DNA from: a virus
DNA: 27,073 nucleotides
Virus record (IMG/VR): IMGVR_UViG_3300027832_000089
Location: 1-27,073 of that record
Strand: one strand, 5' to 3'
Numbering within the stretch: the first letter of the stretch is position 1; each line of letters opens with the position of its first letter. Both the position numbers and the translations under genes were made by a program. The notes under the pieces are model-generated. The model had not been told where the DNA came from and made no database searches. It was given only the letters and a program-made list of their open reading frames with translations. Shown here in pieces: positions 85 to 22,037 of this stretch.

Positions 85-882
85 TTACATTGAAATCTCT
101 ACTGTCTGTGAAAGCGCTAATGATTTATATGCATTAACTATTCCAGTTGCAACTCCAGGTGTCGGATAATATTTAGCATCTATTACTGCAGCTAACTGAG
201 TTAAGCATAAAAATAGATTATCACCAAGTACGGCAGGCTGTTTAACTGGTCCATGTCCAATGGTTACAAAGTTACCATTGATCCATACATCATTTGAAGC
301 AGCTTCTATCTCACTACCTGATGTTAAGTTAATTGTACTATTAGAGTTTATGTTTATTTCTCCTCCACGTAATTCTATGGAAGAAGAGCTATCCGCGTGC
401 TCAACTGTAATAGCCTTATCCTGTCCGATATTAATTCTAGAATTCTTAAGTTGCATTGTTATGCCCTTATCTACGGTAAACCAAATCTTTAATTCTTCGT
501 CGCCATCGAATAGAACAATATGAGTTCCTAAATATTCTCCTTCTTTTGCTAATTCACTTCTAACATCAGTTGCAAGTTCCTGGATCGTATAGTATTCTGG
601 AGAATAAGAGTTTCCGTTATTAAACATTACGGCAACTACTGAATCCTTCTTTGGAATAGAAATAGATCCACCTTGTCCGTCTTGTCCAAAGAACGCAGAT
701 TTCTGTTTAGGATATGCCCATGGTAAATCTTCTGTTTCGATCTCATCTTCGTGCATCCCGAACACTCGAATCTTACATCGTCCTTCTTTATTAGGATCAT
801 TTGGATCTTCAACTACTCCTAGATATGCTTTATCTATGTAGTCCTCATCTCTTTTATTAATTTCTCCAGTTTTATCACTCAT
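85..882 (-). CDS. Baseplate central spike protein, gp5/gpV-like, without lysozyme domain
   Basis: The 265-residue product has an N-terminal OB-fold of the T4 gp5 / phage gpV type. The segment YLGVVEDPNDPNKEGRCKIR (about residues 20-40), followed by LPWAYP, is the typical opening of that fold. A short stretch of alternating hydrophobic/polar residues rich in Ile, Asn and Ser follows (about 145-205) and could form the beta-helical needle. The tail GHGPVKQPAVLGD is typical of gpV/gp45-like spikes. T4 gp5 has about 575 residues with a lysozyme domain between OB-fold and needle; here there is no room for one. It is encoded after the hub and tube-like genes, where a spike gene is expected. Fold-level assignment is confident; the exact T4 orthologue less so. 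Confidence 0.75.
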   Translation of the reverse strand: MSDKTGEINKRDEDYIDKAYLGVVEDPNDPNKEGRCKIRVFGMHEDEIETEDLPWAYPKQKSAFFGQDGQGGSISIPKKDSVVAVMFNNGNSYSPEYYTIQELATDVRSELAKEGEYLGTHIVLFDGDEELKIWFTVDKGITMQLKNSRINIGQDKAITVEHADSSSSIELRGGEININSNSTINLTSGSEIEAASNDVWINGNFVTIGHGPVKQPAVLGDNLFLCLTQLAAVIDAKYYPTPGVATGIVNAYKSLALSQTVEISM

Positions 883-902: not shown

Positions 903-2036
903 TTAGTAAACGTTCCCGTTGTTCGGTTTATTCCACTTAGGTTTAGTATCTCCATTTGACTCATATCCTATTCCATATACATCATTTAAGTTTACAACTG
1001 GATTATCTATGAAATTACTAGCTGCTTCTAATGCTGGATTAATTAATCCACCTACTTGAGCTAGTCCGTTAATTACCTTTTGACCAGCGTTTGATAATGC
1101 ATCTCCTACTACTGGTAATCCACTTAGGAATGATCCTGCGTTTTGTACTCCTGCGCCTACGTTTCTAGATCCCCATGGGTTTCTAATATCAGTTTTGATT
1201 GGATCATCGTATATCTTACTTCCATCTCCGAATTTAGCCTCTTCATTTACCCATCCAACTTTAATCTTGAATGAATTTTCTTCTGACTTTCTTCCTTGTC
1301 CTCCAATATCAACTGATCTACCGATTGGTAAAGTATCTGAGAAATCAAATTCACATTGTCTACATTCAAATTTAACGTATCCGAATTGATCCATTACGTT
1401 TGAGAATGAATTTCCACCTCCAACTATATTACCAATTGCGCCACTATTTACACCTAATGCATTTGCTACATTCTGTCCAATTCCAGGAAGTCTATATCTA
1501 AGGTTTCTAAATTCAGCAATATAAATATCCATTGAAAACCATCTTAAATTATCTGGAACTCTTTCTCTTCTAAATTTATTGTCGAATATTGCATTACGAT
1601 ATAATCCAGAAAGTTCATGTATGCGTAAATCGACTGCCTCTAATGTTTTAATAGTTAGAGATATGTCTTTAGTCTTTAATCCCTTACTTTGATCCGTATT
1701 TTGCGCGTACATTTCACCTAATCCTTCAACTGATTGGAAATACCAAGGTGCGTTAAATGTAAGATATCTCAATATTTCTCTAAATGTAGCCAGTCCATCT
1801 GCTTGTGGATTATATCCTCTACTTATTAAGAAATTAATTGCACTTGAATATCCTCCAGTATTAAATAGTGGACTATTCATTAGTGCTACTTCAGATGTTG
1901 GATTCGGAACAGGTATTTCTTCAAAGTTGAAATCAATTGCGAATGTCAAATACGTAGGTTCATCGAAAGGATCTACGAATATTCCTTTTCTAAAGTTGTT
2001 ATGTTTTAGGTTTAATCCTGTAAAATTATGTGGCAT
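903..2036 (-). CDS. Putative tail-tube or tube-initiator-like baseplate protein
   Basis: The 377-residue product has no enzyme motifs. The region from about residue 100 to 195 (SVEGLGEMY, LTIKTLEAVDLRIHELSGLY, NLRWFSMDIYIAEFRNLRY) looks like the tube-domain proteins of contractile tails, in which a two-layered beta fold carries a helix and the strand FSMDIYIAEFR. The middle and C terminus are Gly/Asn-rich with weak predicted structure. Its start overlaps the stop of the hub gene by one base (TAATG), implying translational coupling, and the spike gene follows. By position and size it could be the T4 gp54/gp48-type tube initiator or cap, but a second candidate for that role lies upstream (4141-6123). 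Family resemblance is from memory, so moderate to low confidence. Confidence 0.5.
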   Translation of the reverse strand: MPHNFTGLNLKHNNFRKGIFVDPFDEPTYLTFAIDFNFEEIPVPNPTSEVALMNSPLFNTGGYSSAINFLISRGYNPQADGLATFREILRYLTFNAPWYFQSVEGLGEMYAQNTDQSKGLKTKDISLTIKTLEAVDLRIHELSGLYRNAIFDNKFRRERVPDNLRWFSMDIYIAEFRNLRYRLPGIGQNVANALGVNSGAIGNIVGGGNSFSNVMDQFGYVKFECRQCEFDFSDTLPIGRSVDIGGQGRKSEENSFKIKVGWVNEEAKFGDGSKIYDDPIKTDIRNPWGSRNVGAGVQNAGSFLSGLPVVGDALSNAGQKVINGLAQVGGLINPALEAASNFIDNPVVNLNDVYGIGYESNGDTKPKWNKPNNGNVY

Positions 2037-3526
2037 TATTGAACTATATTTTTTTCACCTAACCAATTAACTCGTGCTAATTGAAATTCAGTTTTAAATG
2101 GAAACGAGGGATCTAATCTATCATAGATATATTTAACACCGCTTACATAATATTTACCAGATATAATAGTATCTGGAATAGAATCTTGTATATTAATTGG
2201 AACAGCCGATTTACCGTCTACGTTTCCATCTTTAGTTTGAATACTTTTTTCCATTGTAGTAATTGGTGGAAAGTACATCATTATTGGAACTGCCATTCCT
2301 CTATTGACCTGAAAATTAACTCCAGCTGTTTCAACCTTTAACTTAACTTTATTAAGCTCACTATTATTGTGATCATTTATTAAAACCGATGCATTCCATT
2401 CTGCATGTGCGTTACCATAATCAATATTCATCCATTTTTTAATAATAGAATCTCTTAATGTTTCATCATCGGGCTCTAATCCTTTATTGTTACCAGTATA
2501 TCCCTTAATTTGAACAGGATTTACAAAGAAGCTAGTAAATTTATCATTTGCCAATGCCGCATCATAATAATAAATCTTCTTTTTATATCCTTTAGTCTTT
2601 AATATACTTCCATTACTACCCATTAGTGAATAATTGATAATGTATTCAGGTTTACCCCTATAATTATCTTTATTTGTTAATCCAGATACGCTTAACATTT
2701 TAGCTAGTTCTGGATTCTTTCCATCAGTTACGTCCTGTGATATATCTAATTCCGAAGAATCAACCATATTGTCATATGTCATATTATGTTCATTCAGTGG
2801 ATTCAACTGTTCTGCTATATTAATAAAAGTTAAGTGATAGAATTTATCAATGAACGTTGTGAAAAATGAATCATCATCTAGATAGGAATGTTTTGAAACA
2901 TGATCAATAAAATTCAAGCTACTCTTATTAGTATTCAACCATGTCATATTATCATTTGGTGTAAAATCATTACATGCAAATCCTAGATCTGTTTCAGCTG
3001 CTACTTGTTTCAATGTATCTTTTGAATTCATTGATCTGTAGCTCTTAGATACATTCTTGTAAATCTTAGGTATATATAATTCTCCAATCATAATGAACGT
3101 TGCTCCACTATCAATGTTCTCCGCATTCAATATAGCATCTTGATTTGTTTTTATACTTGTAATTAAAAAATCACAACGAATTGGTTTAAACTTATCATTC
3201 TGAGGTTTAATGTAAACACTCATAATTGGATCATTCTTAGGATAATTTGCTCCGGTCAGTGCTCCGGTTCCATCAACAAATATTATTTTAACAGTTGGAA
3301 CAATACCAGTCTCATCAATTATCAATAAATCAATGTCTGAAATTGGAATAGAATTTATCTTAACGAACGGTTTATCAGATCCAGTCTTCGTCTTAGCATT
3401 TCTAACTCCTCTTCCTGGTATATAGAACGGATTCTCAGGTGTCACCTGAGAATCATCTGTTGTCCATAATTCCTTAAGTGGAATTTTTGGATCAGTTATT
3501 ACTGTTATTAAATCTGTTTTAGCCAT
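2036..3526 (-). CDS. Baseplate hub protein, gp27/gpD-like
   Basis: The 496-residue product resembles the phage hub fold shared by T4 gp27, P2 gpD and the VgrG N terminus. Signs are the segment QVAAETDLGFACNDFTPNDN followed by MTWLNTN and then FIDHVSKHSYLDDDSFFTTFID (broken here for length), which matches the usual hub pattern of an alpha/beta module with a conserved Trp and an 'SFF..FID..Y' strand. The N terminus (SIPISDIDLLIIDETG) looks like the first barrel. The product would form the trimeric ring that joins the tube to the spike. It is encoded 3 nt after the gp53-like gene and overlaps the next gene by one base. No lysozyme or amidase domain is visible. Confidence 0.65.
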   Translation of the reverse strand: MAKTDLITVITDPKIPLKELWTTDDSQVTPENPFYIPGRGVRNAKTKTGSDKPFVKINSIPISDIDLLIIDETGIVPTVKIIFVDGTGALTGANYPKNDPIMSVYIKPQNDKFKPIRCDFLITSIKTNQDAILNAENIDSGATFIMIGELYIPKIYKNVSKSYRSMNSKDTLKQVAAETDLGFACNDFTPNDNMTWLNTNKSSLNFIDHVSKHSYLDDDSFFTTFIDKFYHLTFINIAEQLNPLNEHNMTYDNMVDSSELDISQDVTDGKNPELAKMLSVSGLTNKDNYRGKPEYIINYSLMGSNGSILKTKGYKKKIYYYDAALANDKFTSFFVNPVQIKGYTGNNKGLEPDDETLRDSIIKKWMNIDYGNAHAEWNASVLINDHNNSELNKVKLKVETAGVNFQVNRGMAVPIMMYFPPITTMEKSIQTKDGNVDGKSAVPINIQDSIPDTIISGKYYVSGVKYIYDRLDPSFPFKTEFQLARVNWLGEKNIVQ

Positions 3527-6174: not shown

Positions 6175-6447
6175 TTACTTAGTGCTTCTCTGATTCATGA
6201 AATCTTGAAATGTTAATACCGTGTTAGACGGGAAACTTGCAGATTCCTTCTGTGTTTGTTTCTTTCTATATTTTTTACTACCCGAAGTGCTTGTAGTTTT
6301 AGATTTTCCAGGTCCGGAAAGTGCAAACATATCCATGTTATCTCCAGGAGAAGCTGTTGCAGGTACCTGATGCATAGGGGTTTGCGTAAATGAAGGAGAG
6401 TCAGCTGGCGCCAACATATCCTCTTCTATTTTCTTATCGTTTTTCAT
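6175..6447 (-). CDS. Small hypothetical protein, Ser/Thr/Lys-rich
   Basis: The 90-residue product is not recognised. It is low-complexity and hydrophilic (Ser, Thr, Pro, Lys), with basic KKYRKKQTQK in the middle, and probably disordered up to about residue 70. Its last 15 residues (VLTFQDFMNQR and on) contain F-Q-D-F-M-N-Q, which looks like the capsid-targeting-like motif seen at the N termini of other genes here, but placed at the C terminus and with Gln instead of Glu. The gene lies 2 nt downstream of the M15 peptidase gene and 51 nt before the large structural gene, so it probably belongs to the same late transcript. Confidence 0.55.
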   Translation of the reverse strand: MKNDKKIEEDMLAPADSPSFTQTPMHQVPATASPGDNMDMFALSGPGKSKTTSTSGSKKYRKKQTQKESASFPSNTVLTFQDFMNQRSTK

Positions 6448-6449
6448 AA

Positions 6450-7211
6450 TTAAAATATTCTTAATTGTTTAACTCCAGTATTTTCAGATGAACCATCATC
6501 CGTTGTACCACTAATCACTCCTCTACTTATTACATCATTTCCGGAATTATTAGGAGTTACGACTACATCATCTAATGCTCGACCTTGGTAAACTTTACCT
6601 TTTCCGCCAATTGCCGCAAGTTTATTATCGAAGTCTGTTCCTTTTCCAGTTAGACTACTACCATTTGCATCTTTTACGAAATCAAAGTATGAATATTCAG
6701 TACTTGACCCTGTTGATATATGAAAATGTCCAGCGGTTGCACGTCCAGATGGATTCTTATATTCATTAATCATTCCAAGATGTGGATATTTTCCAGATTT
6801 CATAATATCAATTACTACTTCTTCTATATCTGCCTGTTTATCATTAGTTGCCGTCCCGTCAATTACAAAATCTATTGCATTACCGGTTGCGTGTCTACTA
6901 CCTCTACTTCTATGGAAATGATCATTTCCTCCAGTTATATTAAGTCTAATTTTAGTTCTATCTTGTATAATATCTACAATATCAATTAGGTTTGATTCTA
7001 AACTAGCGCTACTGTGAGTAGACACTGCAGATATTAATTCTGGAGCTCCTCCTGGATATTTATCAAGGTGTTTAGTTGGTGTTGGGTTATTTGCGCTATA
7101 TGGTTTAAGTTTAATACCATGGCTTTTAGCAATATTCACAGCAGTGTCCGCATCAACCATTTTCTCGTTTATGCTTCTCCATTTATCATATGTGTTAATA
7201 TAATTATTCAT
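6450..7211 (-). CDS. M15-type zinc peptidase (cell-wall endopeptidase) with capsid-targeting-like N terminus
   Basis: The 253-residue product carries the zinc site of LAS/M15-type murein peptidases: H107 and D114 in SRHATGNAIDF and H162/H164 in GHFHIS. Such enzymes cut D,D-, L,D- or L-Ala-D-Glu links in peptidoglycan; which bond is unclear. The N terminus MNNYINTYDKWRSINE fits the pattern aromatic-x-x-aromatic...I-N-E of T4-type targeting peptides, with a predicted prohead-protease cut after E16. There is no signal peptide. After about residue 190 the chain is Gly/Asp/Ser-rich, with VVVTPN and a likely flexible tail. Start ATG overlaps the upstream stop (TAATG), so translation is coupled to the 67-residue gene. 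Besides packaging into the head, a baseplate-borne role is possible since the gene precedes the baseplate block. Confidence 0.75.
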   Translation of the reverse strand: MNNYINTYDKWRSINEKMVDADTAVNIAKSHGIKLKPYSANNPTPTKHLDKYPGGAPELISAVSTHSSASLESNLIDIVDIIQDRTKIRLNITGGNDHFHRSRGSRHATGNAIDFVIDGTATNDKQADIEEVVIDIMKSGKYPHLGMINEYKNPSGRATAGHFHISTGSSTEYSYFDFVKDANGSSLTGKGTDFDNKLAAIGGKGKVYQGRALDDVVVTPNNSGNDVISRGVISGTTDDGSSENTGVKQLRIF

Positions 7212-7414
7212 TATTTACCCATTTTTTCATATTGACCGAATGGCATGATATGTAATTCCTTTCTCTTAGTTGTCTGCTTTCGCATATATTCTATGATTGA
7301 AGTTTTTGGATTCTCATCTGGATGTTGAACTACTCCTACTTCCAATCGGGCCTTTCCTTTTGCCCAATCATTGATGTTTTTCCAACTCTCATCTTTATGT
7401 TTAGGATCTGCCAT
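7211..7414 (-). CDS. Small hypothetical protein heading the minus-strand structural block
   Basis: The 67-residue product (MADPKHKDESWKNINDWAKG at the start) is charged, with many Lys, and is not recognised. No membrane segment, signal peptide or Cys motif is visible. It is judged real because it starts 11 nt after a perfect copy of the A-rich start element (minus strand, 7439 to 7426) and because its stop overlaps the ATG of the peptidase gene. It is the first gene after the divergent intergenic region. Confidence 0.6.
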   Translation of the reverse strand: MADPKHKDESWKNINDWAKGKARLEVGVVQHPDENPKTSIIEYMRKQTTKRKELHIMPFGQYEKMGK

Positions 7415-7424
7415 ATGATTTAAA

Positions 7425-7462
7425 CTTTTTATTATTTATATGATAGAATAAATAATAAAAAT
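7425..7462. promoter_or_regulatory. Divergent pair of A-rich start elements
   Basis: The 60-bp gap between two divergent genes holds two back-to-back copies of ATAAATAATAAAAA, one on the minus strand (7439 to 7426, 11 nt before the ATG at 7414) and one on the plus strand (7448-7461, 13 nt before the ATG at 7475). The 14-nt core is identical in both. This is the cleanest case for a promoter or combined promoter/initiation signal, since each copy stands at the head of a transcription unit. Leaders would be very short if transcription starts about 10 nt downstream. Confidence 0.6.
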
Positions 7463-7474
7463 ATATTTAATACT

Positions 7475-8266
7475 ATGAATATTTTAGGTTATAGCGATTG
7501 GAAACTAAATGAACAGAATACTTCTAGTTTTAAAGTATATACGTTGCCAAATAGAGAAAATTATATCTATCGAAGAGCCGGAGACAGGTGGCAATTTCAA
7601 TATAAGTCAACTACTCGTAAAGATATATGGCACCGGGTTGAAAACAATCAATCAATTAACTTACTTAAATCACAATATATTAAAAATAAAGCAAAATCTA
7701 AAACTAATATGTCTAATTCAATACCTGTAAATGTTAATACTCAATCATATTGGACTTTAATTGCTATAATTGCATGTGAAAACTATATAGATAATAAGCA
7801 AGGAATGGCAGATGTTGCTCAGTCGATATATAATAGGTTTAATATTAATGGTAAATTATATGGTAAAACAATATTTGATATAATTATATCACAGAATCAA
7901 TATCAGCCAGTTACTGATGGAATCAGCAAAGGTGCAAATTGGAATTCAATTGATACGTTAAATAAATCAATACTTGCATATATGAAAACTAAAGGAGTAG
8001 ATAAGACAACTGCAACTGGCGCTATAAATAATGCAGTATCCGCTCAGAAGGATTCTAAATTAATATCAAATGCAAAAAAACATGTTGGATCTAGAACTGA
8101 GTTTCTATCAACGTTACCAAACTCAAGTAAAGCAATATCACCAGTTGAGAGATCTCCATTTGGATCTAATAATGCATTCTTTTGGAATTACGCTGGGAAA
8201 ACTAATTACTATGACAAACAACTACTTGCTGCAACATCTAAGCCTGGCTCAGTTCTAATATCTTAA
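7475..8266 (+). CDS. SleB-type cell-wall hydrolase with capsid-targeting-like N terminus
   Basis: The 263-residue product has three parts. Residues 1-13, MNILGYSDWKLNE, fit the targeting pattern Y-x-x-W...L-N-E with a predicted cut after E13. Residues about 28-70 form a small Trp/Tyr-rich module (YIYRRAGDRWQFQY, IWHRV) of unknown role. From about 92 a SleB-like hydrolase domain begins, with IIACENYIDNKQGMADVAQS followed by IYNRF: the usual pattern is E..G...GM.AVA..I.NR, and E102 is the likely catalytic acid. NAFFWNYAG near the C terminus also fits. SleB-family enzymes cleave the glycan strand of peptidoglycan. The gene stands alone on the plus strand, diverging from the structural block, with its own start element. 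Its stop lies 1 nt from that of the convergent gene. Confidence 0.75.
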   Translation: MNILGYSDWKLNEQNTSSFKVYTLPNRENYIYRRAGDRWQFQYKSTTRKDIWHRVENNQSINLLKSQYIKNKAKSKTNMSNSIPVNVNTQSYWTLIAIIACENYIDNKQGMADVAQSIYNRFNINGKLYGKTIFDIIISQNQYQPVTDGISKGANWNSIDTLNKSILAYMKTKGVDKTTATGAINNAVSAQKDSKLISNAKKHVGSRTEFLSTLPNSSKAISPVERSPFGSNNAFFWNYAGKTNYYDKQLLAATSKPGSVLIS

Positions 8267-10046: not shown

Positions 10047-11861
10047 TTACTTTTCGTAAAACTCCAGTTCCTTCTGTAAATTAAAAAATTCAGAAGCTAT
10101 TGTGTTAGGAACCATTGCTTTAAACGTATTAAAATCACCATCTTCAATAGCTGCGATAACATCTATTGACTTTTGATAACTTGGAACTTCAATCAATTTG
10201 AATTCGTCATCTAATCTTAATGGAATATCTTTCTTCTTAACATGGTCTAGTTGTAAAACATAGTCCTTTATTTTATTTGAAGTAGATCCCCATAATATTG
10301 GACTAAATTGAGGTCTTAGTCCTGATAATATATTTTTAATAGATCCAGATCCTACGATCTGTACATCTCTAATTAATTCTGGATTGCTCTGTTGTACCTT
10401 CTTAAGCATTATAAGAACAGATCTCTCTGAAAATGGATATCTTCTATTCTTTTTATTAATTGATACAAATACACAAGGTAAACCATTTTTAGCTTTTAAT
10501 TTCTCAGCTGCTTTAATATGACCATTGTGAATTGGTTGGAAACTTCCAATTAATACATTTACCTTTTCAGTTTTAATATTAGCTTTGCTTTTAGTTTCAA
10601 AGTCTTCATTCTCACCTACAAAAAGTGAATCTCCCATGAATTCTCCAAATGATGGAAATAATCCTTCATATAGAACATCACCCATTATCACTCTCTTGAT
10701 TTTAGTAATCTGAATGTTAAGTTGGTTTAATAATTCAGGACTAAAAAAGCTAGAAGAAGATTTCTTTCTAGTTTTTCTAAAGAAGTTAATCAGTATTCTA
10801 TAAATTTCTTTGAATGTATCATTTCCCTGAATAGATTTAACTACTGCTTCATCTTGGATCAAGTCATATTCTATTTCAAATTCTGGTCTATTTAAATATT
10901 CAGGAATATCTAATTGAAGTCCATCATACTTGTTAGAATACTCTTTAATGAAGTCCTTATATATCGCGTTTATTAAGTTAATGTATTTTGCGTCATAATC
11001 ATCTTCACCATCGCACATAGCTCTTAACTCTTCTTCTGAATACATCTCAATCTTATTCATTAAATCGATAACGATTAACCATATGTAATCATTTGATGTA
11101 TTCTCTTTCTTTTTATCAGTTGTAGATCTAATGCTAAACATTGGATCAACTAATTTTGCAAGAAACGCATTTGCTTTTGCATTCTCATCGTTTTCATCAT
11201 AGAATCTAAATATGATACTATCGATGTCTCCATTGAATCCCTTTCTAGTTAAAGCTTCTCTTTCTCCAGAATTAATTATCGAGATAATATATTTGGTAAA
11301 TGATGTAGTTTTAAACTTATCTTGTAGATCTGCATCATTCGCATAAACGAATTCTAAGATGTCTCTCTTTTGATCATCATCTAATTTACCTTCGAATATA
11401 ATAGGTGGAGCTTCTACTTCTAAGTAATATGCCCATCTATCTAAATCATCTTTAGTCTGTAATGTTTCTTCAGGTTTTCCATCTTCACCTAATCGGTGAA
11501 TGTATGAAAGTATTAAATTATTCTTAGGAGATCTATTAAATGAAGACGATTTCTTGTCTCTTGATGTTACGAATTCAAATCCGAAATAAAAGTTAGATGG
11601 GATTCTTGATTTCTTATCTTCTGATAAAGTTTCGAAATATGCAATAGCTGGATTATAGAACTTCATCAGCATTCGATCAACATATGTGATCTCTCCTGAT
11701 TTTTTGAAATAACGGAATTTCCCGCTATCTTTATCCTTTTTAACTCCAAAGAAATTACCTTCGATATTCTCGTTTATTACTACAAAGTTATTTAGAAGAT
11801 TATTTAAAAATTCATCTCCCCTTTTATCGTGTACTTGTCTTAAGTTATTAATCCCTGCCAT
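10047..11861 (-). CDS. Ligase-like domain fused to an HxGH nucleotidyltransferase
   Basis: The 604-residue product ends in a cytidylyltransferase-like (NMN adenylyltransferase/NadM-type) domain: GSFQPIHNGHIKAAEKL at 439-455 has the HxGH site, RYPFSERS at 474-481 and LWGS/SIDV follow at the expected places. Such domains transfer a nucleotide to NMN or a related phosphorylated acceptor, so NAD metabolism is the leading guess. The first 240 residues look like a decayed nucleic-acid-ligase-type fold: NENIEGNFFGVKK at 30-42 matches motif I (EKxDG...) but lacks the nucleotide-accepting Lys, and DIDSIIFRF at 212-220 resembles motif IV (EGxVF). The middle (about 255-400) is helical and unknown. The gene ends at 10047, with a 28-nt gap to its upstream neighbour. 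The ligase-like reading is by eye. Confidence 0.65.
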   Translation of the reverse strand: MAGINNLRQVHDKRGDEFLNNLLNNFVVINENIEGNFFGVKKDKDSGKFRYFKKSGEITYVDRMLMKFYNPAIAYFETLSEDKKSRIPSNFYFGFEFVTSRDKKSSSFNRSPKNNLILSYIHRLGEDGKPEETLQTKDDLDRWAYYLEVEAPPIIFEGKLDDDQKRDILEFVYANDADLQDKFKTTSFTKYIISIINSGEREALTRKGFNGDIDSIIFRFYDENDENAKANAFLAKLVDPMFSIRSTTDKKKENTSNDYIWLIVIDLMNKIEMYSEEELRAMCDGEDDYDAKYINLINAIYKDFIKEYSNKYDGLQLDIPEYLNRPEFEIEYDLIQDEAVVKSIQGNDTFKEIYRILINFFRKTRKKSSSSFFSPELLNQLNIQITKIKRVIMGDVLYEGLFPSFGEFMGDSLFVGENEDFETKSKANIKTEKVNVLIGSFQPIHNGHIKAAEKLKAKNGLPCVFVSINKKNRRYPFSERSVLIMLKKVQQSNPELIRDVQIVGSGSIKNILSGLRPQFSPILWGSTSNKIKDYVLQLDHVKKKDIPLRLDDEFKLIEVPSYQKSIDVIAAIEDGDFNTFKAMVPNTIASEFFNLQKELEFYEK

Positions 11862-11889: not shown

Positions 11890-12432
11890 TTAAACTTCAC
11901 CATCAGTTTTAGAAGGTTGTGGATTTTCACTAGATACATCATTTTCAACTTTTGCTGAATCCTTTCTAATAGATTTAGAATCAATAGATATCGAGATACT
12001 TCTTACGTTGTCTACATCCTCTGAATTCTTACTAAAATATCCAATCACTTTTTTAAGATTCATGTTTGATTCGTTTCCAAATCCACCATACTCATCTATT
12101 TTGCCTCTTAGACTTTTAGTAGCATCCCAACTACCTGCATAACTAATTGACCAGCAGTAGAATTTAACTTCCTCTCCCTTACTTGAATAGTAATGCTCAA
12201 TGTCTTTAATTTTATTGATTGCTCCGTTTGCATCACGGTACGATAATGAATATCCCTTATTATCTGCAGGAACTCCAAACTTAACTCTATCTGACATGAT
12301 TTCCATTAATTCACTAATTCTAGCTACTAATGAATCTGCGCTATATCCCTTTAATGGTGCTGATTTTGCTTTAGCTTCTTCTTGTTCGTTAATTTTCTCG
12401 AACTGTCTAAATTTATTTACTCGATTTCTCAC
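11890..12432 (-). CDS. Hypothetical protein with capsid-targeting-like N terminus (GTG start preferred)
   Basis: The open frame extends to a TTG at 12459, but that codon lies inside the A-rich element GATAAATAATAAAAA. GTG at 12432 is preferred: it lies 10 nt after the element, as at other genes here, and gives MRNRVNKFRQFEKINE, which fits the targeting pattern F-x-x-F...I-N-E with a predicted cut after the Glu. The product would have about 180 residues. The body contains KFYCWSISYAGSWDATKSLR and GGFGNESNMNLKKV (about 90-130), not recognised, and ends in a hydrophilic tail rich in Ser, Asp and Lys. It overlaps or abuts the end of the kinase gene. If processed like T4 internal proteins, it would be a head-packaged protein of unknown function. 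Confidence 0.6.
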   Translation of the reverse strand: MRNRVNKFRQFEKINEQEEAKAKSAPLKGYSADSLVARISELMEIMSDRVKFGVPADNKGYSLSYRDANGAINKIKDIEHYYSSKGEEVKFYCWSISYAGSWDATKSLRGKIDEYGGFGNESNMNLKKVIGYFSKNSEDVDNVRSISISIDSKSIRKDSAKVENDVSSENPQPSKTDGEV

Positions 12433-12442
12433 GGCAATGAAT

Positions 12443-12457
12443 TTTTTATTATTTATC
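12443..12457 (-). promoter_or_regulatory. A-rich start element overlapping the kinase stop codon
   Basis: The minus strand reads GATAAATAATAAAAA. Its GAT AAA TAA part encodes the last two residues (Asp-Lys) and stop codon of the kinase-like gene, and its end lies 10 nt before the proposed GTG start at 12432. The match to copies at 6136, 7426, 7448 and 21695 is exact in the 14-nt core. Confidence 0.55.
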
Positions 12458-14463: not shown

Positions 14464-15435
14464 ATGATTTTAAAGAAAGGCGACAAAGGCAACGCGGTAA
14501 AAGAGCTTCAGGTATTACTTGGAATTAAGGCAGATGGTGACTTCGGTACATATACAGAAGCGGTAGTTATAAAATTCCAAAAATCTAAAAAACTAACAGC
14601 TGATGGTATCGTAGGATCAGCAACAATGAAAGCACTATCAAGGGGTGGATTAAGTATCGATACTGATAGAACTGGATTCGATGATTCGAACGACAAAGAT
14701 AATAAGCTTGTATATCATGGAAGTTATAAAACTGCAGATGGTTTAGTTATCGATAGAGCATATCTTGATTCAGATGAGTACGTAAGAGATTACGGAAAAT
14801 TAGAACCTACTATCTTTTTTATTCACCACACTGCCGGATGGAATAATCCATATGCTACAATTAATTCTTGGAACAAAGATGATAGAGGACGAGTATGTAC
14901 TCAATATTGTATAGGTGGAACATCAATTGCAAAAGGTAAATATGAAGATTCTAAATATGATGGCACAGTAGTAGAATGTTTCCCTAATAATTATGTAGGT
15001 TGGCACTTAGGAAAAGTAGGAGACTTTAATACTTCTAAATATTCATCAGGTGTTGAAATTAACAACTTCGGATATGCTGAAAAGCAAGGTGATAAGTATT
15101 ATAACTACGTAAACGTTGAAGTACCTGCAGATATGGTTTGTGATTTAGGTTACAAATTTAGAGGACATCAATATTGGCATAAATATACTGATGCTCAAAT
15201 TAAAAGTTTGAGATTATTATTAATTCACGTTGGTAAAACATATCCAAAGATCGATATACTTGCTGGAATTCCTAAATTATTAAAGGACGGAGTTTCTCCA
15301 AAGGATGCATTCGAATTCAACAGCGATGTATATAATGGAAAAGTAAAAGGTGTATGGACTCACACGACAGTTAGAAAAGATAAATTCGACTGTTTCCCAC
15401 AACCTGAATTAGTTAAAATGTTAAAGAACTTGTAA
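14464..15435 (+). CDS. Endolysin: peptidoglycan-binding domain plus N-acetylmuramoyl-L-alanine amidase
   Basis: The 323-residue product has an N-terminal PG_binding_1 domain (about 1-60: GDKGNAVKELQVLLG, DGDFGTYTEAVV, ADGIVGSAT) and a C-terminal Amidase_2 domain (about 112-323). FFIHHTAGW at 118-126 gives the first zinc His, WTH at 298-300 the second, and KFDC at 307-310 the Lys/Cys pair seen in T7 lysozyme-type amidases. It would cut the bond between MurNAc and L-Ala to release progeny at lysis. There is no signal peptide, so a holin would be needed; none is recognised in this window. Unlike the M15 and SleB enzymes, it has no targeting-like N terminus, as expected for a lysis enzyme. Confidence 0.9.
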   Translation: MILKKGDKGNAVKELQVLLGIKADGDFGTYTEAVVIKFQKSKKLTADGIVGSATMKALSRGGLSIDTDRTGFDDSNDKDNKLVYHGSYKTADGLVIDRAYLDSDEYVRDYGKLEPTIFFIHHTAGWNNPYATINSWNKDDRGRVCTQYCIGGTSIAKGKYEDSKYDGTVVECFPNNYVGWHLGKVGDFNTSKYSSGVEINNFGYAEKQGDKYYNYVNVEVPADMVCDLGYKFRGHQYWHKYTDAQIKSLRLLLIHVGKTYPKIDILAGIPKLLKDGVSPKDAFEFNSDVYNGKVKGVWTHTTVRKDKFDCFPQPELVKMLKNL

Positions 15436-19017: not shown

Positions 19018-20559
19018 ATGGAAGATAATTCTAAAAAAATCAAACAATTAAGCCTGAGGCAAGGAGCCATCAAGATTCTTATTAACTCGATATACGGAGC
19101 CTTCGGAAATAAGTGGTTTTATTTTTATAATCCAGATATCGCCCAGTCGATTACACTCCAGGGACAAGATATGATTAAGTTTGCGAATAAGGCAATTGAT
19201 TTTTACTTTAAAAACCGATGGCATCTAGATACCGAACTTCATGAAAAACTCGGATATGCTAATCATAAAATAAATCAGATTCCATCTGATACAATCATTG
19301 CAGTATACACAGATACAGATTCAACTTATGTTAATTTTGAGCCTGCTATATTGTCAATAGAAGGATTGGATTTAACTGAAGATGAAAACATGCGATTATG
19401 TATTGAGATCGATAAACATCGTATTATGGAATTTTACGATACTGCCTTTGACAAATGGTCAGCGAGATTTAATACTGAGAATCGTCAAACGTTTAAATTG
19501 GAGCTTATTGCAACTACCGCAGTTTGGATTAAGAAAAAGAATTATGTACTTAAAGTAGCATATGAACCTAATCCAAATGAGGAATTATATCCAATGTATG
19601 ACAGGTACCTTTTGATTAAGGGACTTGAGCCGATTAAAGCATCATATCCAATATGGGCAAGAGAGCACCAAACTGCATTCATCGAATACCTATTGAAGAC
19701 GGGTGTTAACTTTGATTTAGAACAGGATTTAGTTACAATGATAGAGAAAGTTAAAGAAGAATTTTTAACTCTTCATCCTGATGAATTCTCACAAAGTTTT
19801 AACCTGCGACAATATGATAAATACGTTCAGAGTGAAGCTAAATTCATATTAAAGGGAGGAGCAGCGAATGGACCAAAGGCGGTAATGCATCACAATCACT
19901 TAATTATTAAAAATGAATTAGAAGGTAGATATCCTAGGATTCGACAAGGTAGTAAATATCAAATGCTATATTGTAAACCAAATGAATTCGGAGTAGATCT
20001 ATTTGCATATAACCCAGGGCAATATCCAACCGAGATAGTTCCTGAACTAGATTTAGATCAACAATTCTTTGTTTTAATTGTAGAGCCTATTAATAGAATA
20101 CTGAAAGCAATTGGACTAAATACTCTCGATCCTAATTTACGAAGATCAGTTATATTCAAAACATCGAAGACTAAGAATCCAATGACTCATGATCAAATGT
20201 ACCCATATCATGTGATATGCGAAGCGACACTTGATCATGAAGAAGTTCCAGAGAAATTCTGGAACATAATTGGAAATCCAGATGCTGATGTTCCAGATGA
20301 TGATTTCGATGAATATCTACAAATCATAACAAAATATGGATTGAACACTGTAATAATCATAAATAAAAATCTAAAGCCATTCATTAATCGAATATCAAAG
20401 AAATTGGGGATTGGAGCATTCTCCCCAGAGGGATTAGCCGAATCTGCTAGAATAGCTGAAGAACGGGAAATCGAGAAAGACAGAAAGGCTGAAGAGAAAC
20501 GAGAGAACGCAATTGCTAGACATGCTGAAGTAGCAAGAAAGGCTACACTTAAACAATGA
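19018..20559 (+). CDS. 43: DNA polymerase family B, C-terminal half only (split gp43)
   Basis: The 513-residue product starts inside the polymerase fingers. KILINSIYGAFGN at about 19-31 is motif B (with the conserved Lys, Asn and Tyr-Gly of T4/RB69 gp43 KILINSLYGALGN) and YTDTDSTYV at about 98-106 is motif C with its two catalytic Asp. LKVAYEPN and the thumb region follow (about 180-470). Motif A (SLYPS-type) and the 3'-5' exonuclease are absent; a TAA lies in frame four codons before the ATG, so this is a true separate gene. The last 50 residues are a charged helix (EEREIEKDRKAEEKRENAIA), with no T4-like C-terminal clamp-binding sequence. The stop overlaps the primase start (ATGA). The other half must be encoded elsewhere for a working enzyme; it is not in this window. 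Confidence 0.9.
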   Translation: MEDNSKKIKQLSLRQGAIKILINSIYGAFGNKWFYFYNPDIAQSITLQGQDMIKFANKAIDFYFKNRWHLDTELHEKLGYANHKINQIPSDTIIAVYTDTDSTYVNFEPAILSIEGLDLTEDENMRLCIEIDKHRIMEFYDTAFDKWSARFNTENRQTFKLELIATTAVWIKKKNYVLKVAYEPNPNEELYPMYDRYLLIKGLEPIKASYPIWAREHQTAFIEYLLKTGVNFDLEQDLVTMIEKVKEEFLTLHPDEFSQSFNLRQYDKYVQSEAKFILKGGAANGPKAVMHHNHLIIKNELEGRYPRIRQGSKYQMLYCKPNEFGVDLFAYNPGQYPTEIVPELDLDQQFFVLIVEPINRILKAIGLNTLDPNLRRSVIFKTSKTKNPMTHDQMYPYHVICEATLDHEEVPEKFWNIIGNPDADVPDDDFDEYLQIITKYGLNTVIIINKNLKPFINRISKKLGIGAFSPEGLAESARIAEEREIEKDRKAEEKRENAIARHAEVARKATLKQ

Positions 20560-21694: not shown

Positions 21695-21708
21695 ATAAAT
21701 AATAAAAA
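21695..21708 (+). promoter_or_regulatory. A-rich start element
   Basis: ATAAATAATAAAAA lies in the 30-nt gap after the primase gene, 11 nt before the ATG at 21720. It matches the copies at 6136, 7426, 7448 and 12443 exactly in the core and may start a late transcript for the head genes that follow. Confidence 0.5.
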
Positions 21709-21719
21709 GCTTAATCATC

Positions 21720-22037
21720 ATGAATAGATTATATACTACATTTGCATCATTTGATGCCAGTCAAATTAACGAAAATGCTGAAGTTGAAATGGATATGGAT
21801 GAAACCATACTTAACGCACTAGTTGATATTGTTGGATCAGAAGAAGATGTTGAAGAATGTGCAAGAGAGGCATTCGAAGATCTTAAGAAAGCATTTGAAA
21901 GAAATGAAGCTGATGTACCTGATGGAGAAAGAGGAGAACATCTTGCAATATCAGCACTTATAGTTAAATTGGTAGAAAAAGGAAAACTCGGCCCTCAAGA
22001 AGCTGATTCATTTATTGAGAACAAATTAAATGTCTAA
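21720..22037 (+). CDS. Small acidic protein with capsid-targeting-like N terminus (possible head core protein)
   Basis: The 105-residue product opens MNRLYTTFASFDASQINE, matching F-x-x-F...I-N-E, with a predicted cut after E18. The rest is acidic and helical (EEDVEECAREAFEDLKKAFE, about 48-67). Small acidic head proteins cut by the prohead protease are known in T4 (for example gp67, gp68 and internal proteins), and the gene is close to gp4 and portal genes, so a prohead core or internal protein is plausible. No direct similarity is recognised. Its 3' end overlaps the next gene by 8 nt. Confidence 0.6.
   Translation: MNRLYTTFASFDASQINENAEVEMDMDETILNALVDIVGSEEDVEECAREAFEDLKKAFERNEADVPDGERGEHLAISALIVKLVEKGKLGPQEADSFIENKLNV

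Follow-up and report, generated by a model that had tools for sequence, protein, structure and literature searches.

Two putative peptidoglycan hydrolases of a T4-like phage begin with a capsid-targeting-like peptide and may be head cargo

The window, that is the whole 27,073-base stretch of DNA analysed here, comes from a T4-like phage, with a portal gene, a gp25-like gene, a spike, a helicase and a minus-strand baseplate cluster. Among the long relatives, G009 (138 kb) stands closest and shares its gene order, most proteins being 70-94% identical; three contigs of 250-349 kb (G002, G003 and G004) stand further away. When portal and capsid are compared, the closest phages with a name are uncultured huge phages, Prevotella Lak phages and phages of Bacteroidota; from the capsid relatives (Lak, pT24, PAU and MA9V), Bacteroidota are possible hosts of the tagged relatives. 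One portal gene was seen in the window and in G009, whereas two different portal-protein genes lie in tandem in G002 (28572-31880), G003 (29170-32476) and G004 (316048-319281). The window also contains a Family-B DNA polymerase-like ORF (19018-20559, plus strand), apparently the C-terminal half alone and possibly part of a split polymerase. The features on which the analysis centred are as follows.

85-882, minus strand: gp5-like spike/baseplate protein, 265 aa, lysozyme domain not seen
2036-3526, minus strand: baseplate-cluster protein adjoining a LysM/gp53-like gene, lysin domain not detected
6175-6447, minus strand: 90-aa ORF downstream of the M15-type gene, 80% conserved in G009 (34981-35250)
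6450-7211, minus strand: M15-type zinc peptidase (L-Ala-D-Glu peptidase-like, by fold and motif), 253 aa, domain at about residues 70-170
7164-7211, minus strand: targeting-like peptide MNNYINTYDKWRSINE at the N terminus of the M15-type protein
7211-7414, minus strand: 67-aa ORF between the minus-strand promoter and the M15-type gene, untagged, 87% conserved in G009
7428-7439, minus strand: late-promoter-like element ATAAATAATAAA, 25 nt upstream of ORF 7211-7414, the first gene of the M15 operon
7448-7459, plus strand: late-promoter-like element ATAAATAATAAA, 27 nt upstream of the SleB ATG
7475-8266, plus strand: SleB/Hydrolase_2-type peptidoglycan hydrolase, 263 aa, catalytic domain at about residues 87-257
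7475-7513, plus strand: targeting-like peptide MNILGYSDWKLNE at the N terminus of the SleB-type protein, candidate gp21-type cut after E13
14464-15435, plus strand: endolysin candidate (PG-binding and amidase-like), used as untagged control

A first-pass annotation had assigned an M15-type and a SleB-type enzyme to the two divergent genes, and the ORFs, Pfam, fold and motif bear this out. The SleB-type ORF matched Hydrolase_2 (PF07486) with E=5.7e-5 and 24.1 bits, under the Pfam cut-off of 27. Its tagged and fused relatives gave E values of 2e-5 to 1e-6, one fused relative scored 29.6 bits, and the syntenic enzyme of G009 exceeded the cut-off (E=1.3e-7). A conserved Glu region and N-R motif, ACEN/AAEN...GMADVAQSIYNR, is present in all complete members. 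A Hydrolase_2 search of PAU, pT24, MA9V-2, MaF61, LR756500 and Lak-B1 returned no match.

The M15-type ORF matched neither Pfam nor PHROG families. Against PDB profiles, an L-alanyl-D-glutamate peptidase match was weak (E=0.26), and in one relative (L141) a Peptidase_M15_3 match stayed under the cut-off. An AlphaFold model of the domain was obtained with 11 relatives as input (pLDDT 70); it superseded a model built from two sequences (pLDDT 44), whose Foldseek matches were meaningless. The top three PDB matches of the new model were the ChiX L-Ala-D-Glu endopeptidase, LysECD7 and the RB49 L-Ala-D-Glu peptidase, with Foldseek probabilities of 1.00, 0.99 and 0.93, respectively, and E values of 3e-3 to 2e-2. 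On this model the domain is of the M15/hedgehog-type fold, with L-Ala-D-Glu peptidases as its nearest neighbours. The putative zinc ligands and catalytic acid (SRHxxGxAxDF, E and HxH) are invariant or nearly so in the alignment, the identity of the acid being uncertain because of the long spacing between it and the last H. Since an M15 sequence-family match was absent, the protein is filed as M15-like by fold and not by sequence family.

The region between the two genes holds a divergent, back-to-back pair of exact ATAAATAATAAA copies; the divergent pair had been described before. That description needs one correction: the gene next to the minus-strand element is the 67-aa ORF, and the M15-type gene comes second. 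The window contains five exact and nine near matches to ATAAATAATAAA, and none of 100 shuffles reached nine. In G009, an element of this type lies 24-28 nt ahead of the protease/capsid operon, the baseplate operon, five tagged genes and others; for the tagged genes, the late-promoter assignment is one of motif and position only. The 90-aa ORF behind the M15-type gene ends in VLTFQDFMNQ (VLTFEDFMNQ in G009), which is tag-like but without the final E.

Both enzymes begin with a targeting-like peptide, as the first-pass annotation had proposed, the pattern hxx[FYW]xx[FYW]...[LI]xE being found at each N terminus. The M15-type protein reads MNNYINTYDKWRSINE followed by KM and the SleB-type protein MNILGYSDWKLNE followed by QN; the G009 orthologue of the former keeps the tag as MSGHITTYKEWRKIQE, with IQE replacing INE. 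The core of the tag was defined as an aromatic pair with a 3-residue spacing followed by [LI]NE ([FYW]xx[FYW]..[LI]NE). When the ORFs of the four long relatives and the window were pooled, the N-terminal 26 residues contained this core 48 times, where the internal rate predicts 2.25; other aromatic spacings with [LI]NE gave 3-9 matches each. In all four relatives [LI]NE was enriched at residues 5-15. The broader pattern marked 13, 27, 32 and 38 genes in the relatives, against control means of 1.7-5.2, which corresponds to 8-9% of genes over a background of about 1%; in many of these matches E is not preceded by N, and a number of them must have arisen by chance. As internal 24-residue windows matched the tag pattern at a rate of 1.1%, the probability that both named genes are tagged by chance is about 1e-4. 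A first, looser pattern had been dropped, its enrichment being merely 2-5 fold. Two more proteins of the window are tagged.

11890-12432, minus strand: third tagged protein, MRNRVNKFRQFEKINE followed by QEE, GTG start after a promoter at 12445-12456
21720-22037, plus strand: fourth tagged protein, MNRLYTTFASFDASQINE followed by NAE, promoter at 21695-21706

A further candidate, ORF 10047-11861 (minus strand, INEN), was rejected, its tag-like residues lying where ligase motif I is expected and where relatives read EKMDG. This ORF comprises a ligase-like N-terminal half with a degenerate motif I (ENIEG, compared with EKMDG in relatives) and a cytidylyltransferase-like domain.

The same pattern was applied blind to the 276 ORFs of T4. 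Five strict matches were obtained, including IPII, IPIII (MKTYQEFIAE followed by A) and gene 61.1, while those in the portal and pseT.1 look like chance; IPI was missed, as it shares the aromatic pair and has a later cut site. In the cultured outgroups PAU, MaF61 and pT24, which have related capsid proteins, the search gave background level only. The motif statistics, the T4 control and the background level in the outgroups together indicate that the peptide is real, lineage-bound and of CTS type. In PAU (L150-L160), about 16 proteins share another repeated leader, MKT[LI]xxLYE[AS]KLNE[AS], and some of them are annotated as scaffolding or internal capsid protein, a hint that lineages may own distinct address labels. 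A Lak phage M15-like ORF shows MKNIYKTILSES; a clear genome-wide tag was absent from 400 kb of Lak-B1.

Several observations connect the peptide to the head. A gp21-type protease is encoded in all four long relatives (G002, G003, G004 and G009), the window stopping short of the gene. In G002, the three genes right behind the capsid gene are all tagged, and so are their counterparts in those relatives that meet the pattern. The capsid N termini of G002-G004 read ...YHSLNE followed by SAG, comparable to ...SFLTE followed by AEI in T4. In a plain MAFFT alignment, the LNE of the major capsid protein and the T4 LTE fell into different columns, so the shared capsid cleavage site is an argument from motif. 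In G002 (42671-44692) and G009 (50951-52918), the protease domain lies within ORFs of 650-680 aa, about three times the size of T4 gp21, the domain being probably fused to another, perhaps scaffold-like, part.

The tag is not confined to the two enzymes. Wall-type proteins tagged in the relatives include four CHAP proteins, one SLT transglycosylase and PG-binding proteins of 416-467 aa, the 416-aa one by a weak match only. Two tagged PG-binding proteins carry long alanine-rich hydrophobic tails. Among the tagged PG-binding proteins (L057:8023-9426 and L059:1233-2483), that of L057 and its G004 counterpart have this region at the C terminus and might be channel or pilot proteins. Also tagged are an adenylate kinase, a CCA/poly-A polymerase, a RimK ATP-grasp protein and a GDPD; because it occurs on such cytoplasmic-type enzymes (adenylate kinase, RimK, CCA-adding-like), the tag alone does not point to the wall.

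For SleB, presence of the tag goes with the free-standing form of the domain. All eight free-standing SleB relatives in viral contigs are tagged, the sequence between tag and enzyme being hardly alignable, whereas in about 13 others SleB is the C-terminal domain of an untagged 960-1500 aa protein, which adjoins a gp53-like baseplate gene where checked. M15 relatives are likewise C-terminal in this large protein family, as one member with M15 and one with SleB share 34% identity over 679 residues outside the lysin domain. The window's ORF 2036-3526 and this lysin-fused protein occupy the same position relative to the LysM/gp53-like gene. In Psychrobacter phage D'Alembert, an M15-like domain lies within a contractile injection system protein. 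The SleB slot of G009 is occupied by a different, distant SleB that is tagged with MSILNYNDWSLIE and flanked by the same pair of promoters, so that the enzyme has been exchanged under a constant tag and promoter. Polyproteins of 440-1060 aa combining NUDIX and SleB (and GNAT-like and more) domains were seen in L106-L111, L113 and L115 (e.g. L111:3422-4750, and L109). Those of L110 and L111 start tag-like (LDYRSFFRE and INYRSFFNE), and these polyproteins are possibly head cargo cut by the protease.

We consider these findings best explained, with a probability of roughly two in three, by both genes encoding head cargo that is processed by gp21 and acts on the wall at entry. Both enzymes would be late-made, virion-borne peptidoglycan hydrolases whose first 13-16 residues serve as a T4-type capsid-targeting propeptide, docking each enzyme on the prohead scaffold core. 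The gp21-type protease would then cut after [LI]-x-E, and the cut enzymes would be retained in the head and exit with the DNA. Lysin domains that in relatives sit on the large baseplate-cluster protein would here be free-standing and re-addressed to the head, most likely helping to open the wall for DNA entry in the manner of T7 gp16. Head packaging of both enzymes appears quite probable. Given packaging, a function in entry is favoured, if less firmly: it is the likeliest job because both domains are common to tail-hub lysins and because the spike and the hub-like protein here have no lysin domain. That the spike lacks a visible lysozyme domain, as the first-pass annotation had noted, follows from its gp5-type match, which covers the N-terminal part only, and its length of 265 aa. 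Support for a particular site and time of action falls below that for packaging and is tentative. The earlier proposal that the enzymes are tagged for the head is thus partly supported: tagging follows well from the motif statistics, the T4 control, the relatives' protease, the head-gene cluster, the enzyme swaps and the outgroups, whereas packaging, proteolytic processing and release with the DNA are inferred, as is where and when the enzymes act.

The arrangement would be a variation on CTS-addressed head cargo, with a functional parallel in T7 gp16. The T4 CTS carries foreign proteins into heads, and CTS fusions show that the peptide suffices for packaging (PMC9958956, PMC3012670). Shared with T4 IPI, IPII and IPIII are the N-terminal h-x-x-aromatic-x-x-aromatic...[LI]-x-E, the gp21-type protease (here in the relatives) and otherwise unrelated cargo (PMC9958956). 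Unlike the T4 internal proteins, the cargo here consists of peptidoglycan hydrolases; the tag is carried by 8-9% of genes in the relatives compared with a handful in T4, and it usually ends in LNE instead of IAE. The literature examined is consistent with the earlier remark that tagged T4 cargo includes no known wall enzymes, nothing linking CTS tags to wall enzymes was found in the open-licence literature, and cultured phages yielded no tagged wall enzyme. Wall enzymes inside a phage head are not unprecedented as such: the transglycosylase gp16 of T7 resides within the head, and its proposed role on ejection is to open the wall (PMC8954989). The likeness is functional only, as gp16 is a large core/channel protein with membrane segments from a short-tailed phage, whereas the present enzymes are small (253 and 263 aa), free and T4-type tagged, and belong to a T4-like phage. 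The T4 gp5 tail lysozyme and hub-fused lysins such as that of D'Alembert, which has the same M15-type domain, perform the same task; they are covalently in the tail, whereas the enzymes here are free-standing and tagged. In the unrelated phage P1, the N-terminal 30 residues of DarB are enough for capsid targeting, the cargo there being anti-restriction (PMC9024508). In SPN3US/phiKZ, head and ejection proteins have N-terminal propeptides cleaved by the prohead protease, mostly long and cut at AxE, unlike here; the text of that paper does not mention peptidoglycan (PMC10052503).

T4 internal proteins work in the cytoplasm, a compartment without peptidoglycan. Delivery to the cytoplasm as in T4 would therefore make the enzymes miss the wall unless they were released early, in the periplasm, and this topology is the weak step in the entry function. 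The enzymes could instead be packaged and injected and act at a later stage or another site, either to exclude a second phage or to remodel the wall from the inside. T4 internal protein I does work after injection (PMC3012670), and the remaining tagged cargo looks cytoplasmic; an export signal is not visible, however, and the relatedness of both domains to lysins fused to the tail favours entry, so that we regard later action as unlikely, though the strongest of the alternatives.

Somewhat less likely still, the two proteins could be entry lysins of the tail, bound non-covalently to the baseplate, with the peptide docking there or being a remnant. Both genes adjoin the baseplate cluster, towards which the operon of the minus-strand promoter runs, both domains have their closest relatives as fusions to the large protein beside the gp53-like gene, and the lack of a lysin domain on spike and hub-like protein would suit tail lysins equally. 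Yet the peptide is also found on core-type genes next to the capsid gene, on adenylate kinase, RimK and dozens more, which are implausible baseplate parts; the tagged SleB genes of G002-G004 lie far from baseplate genes, and the baseplate genes of the window carry no tag.

Endolysins of many phages have M15, SleB or CHAP domains. Together with promoters of late type, this would fit lysis enzymes released late in infection, the peptide having another role. Against this, a separate endolysin candidate is present in the window and in the four relatives, untagged in 5/5 cases, and non-wall enzymes share the tag, which makes a lysis role improbable. Finally, that the N-terminal match reflects chance or AT-rich composition is very hard to sustain: the motif is loose and one match in the window proved to be the ligase region, but shuffles, internal windows and other spacings are all at background, outgroups show none and orthologues keep the peptide.

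We therefore retain gp21-processed head cargo acting at entry as the preferred reading. A broader version, in which a whole lineage of large T4-like phages stocks its heads with a CTS-addressed wall-cutting kit (SleB, M15, CHAP, SLT and PG-binding), the peptide allowing tail-lysin domains to move into the capsid and the soluble enzymes then being sent through the tail tube at infection, seems to us possible, at a little under even odds. Injected cargo is otherwise read off by virion proteomics. If our reading is right, it would provide a sequence rule for the injected cargo of large uncultured phages, amounting to about 30 proteins per large relative examined, and it predicts muralytic activity inside heads. 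The natural CTS sequences and their cargo may also be usable for protein delivery. Contractile phages would then supply wall enzymes from the head as well, beyond those of the tail tip.
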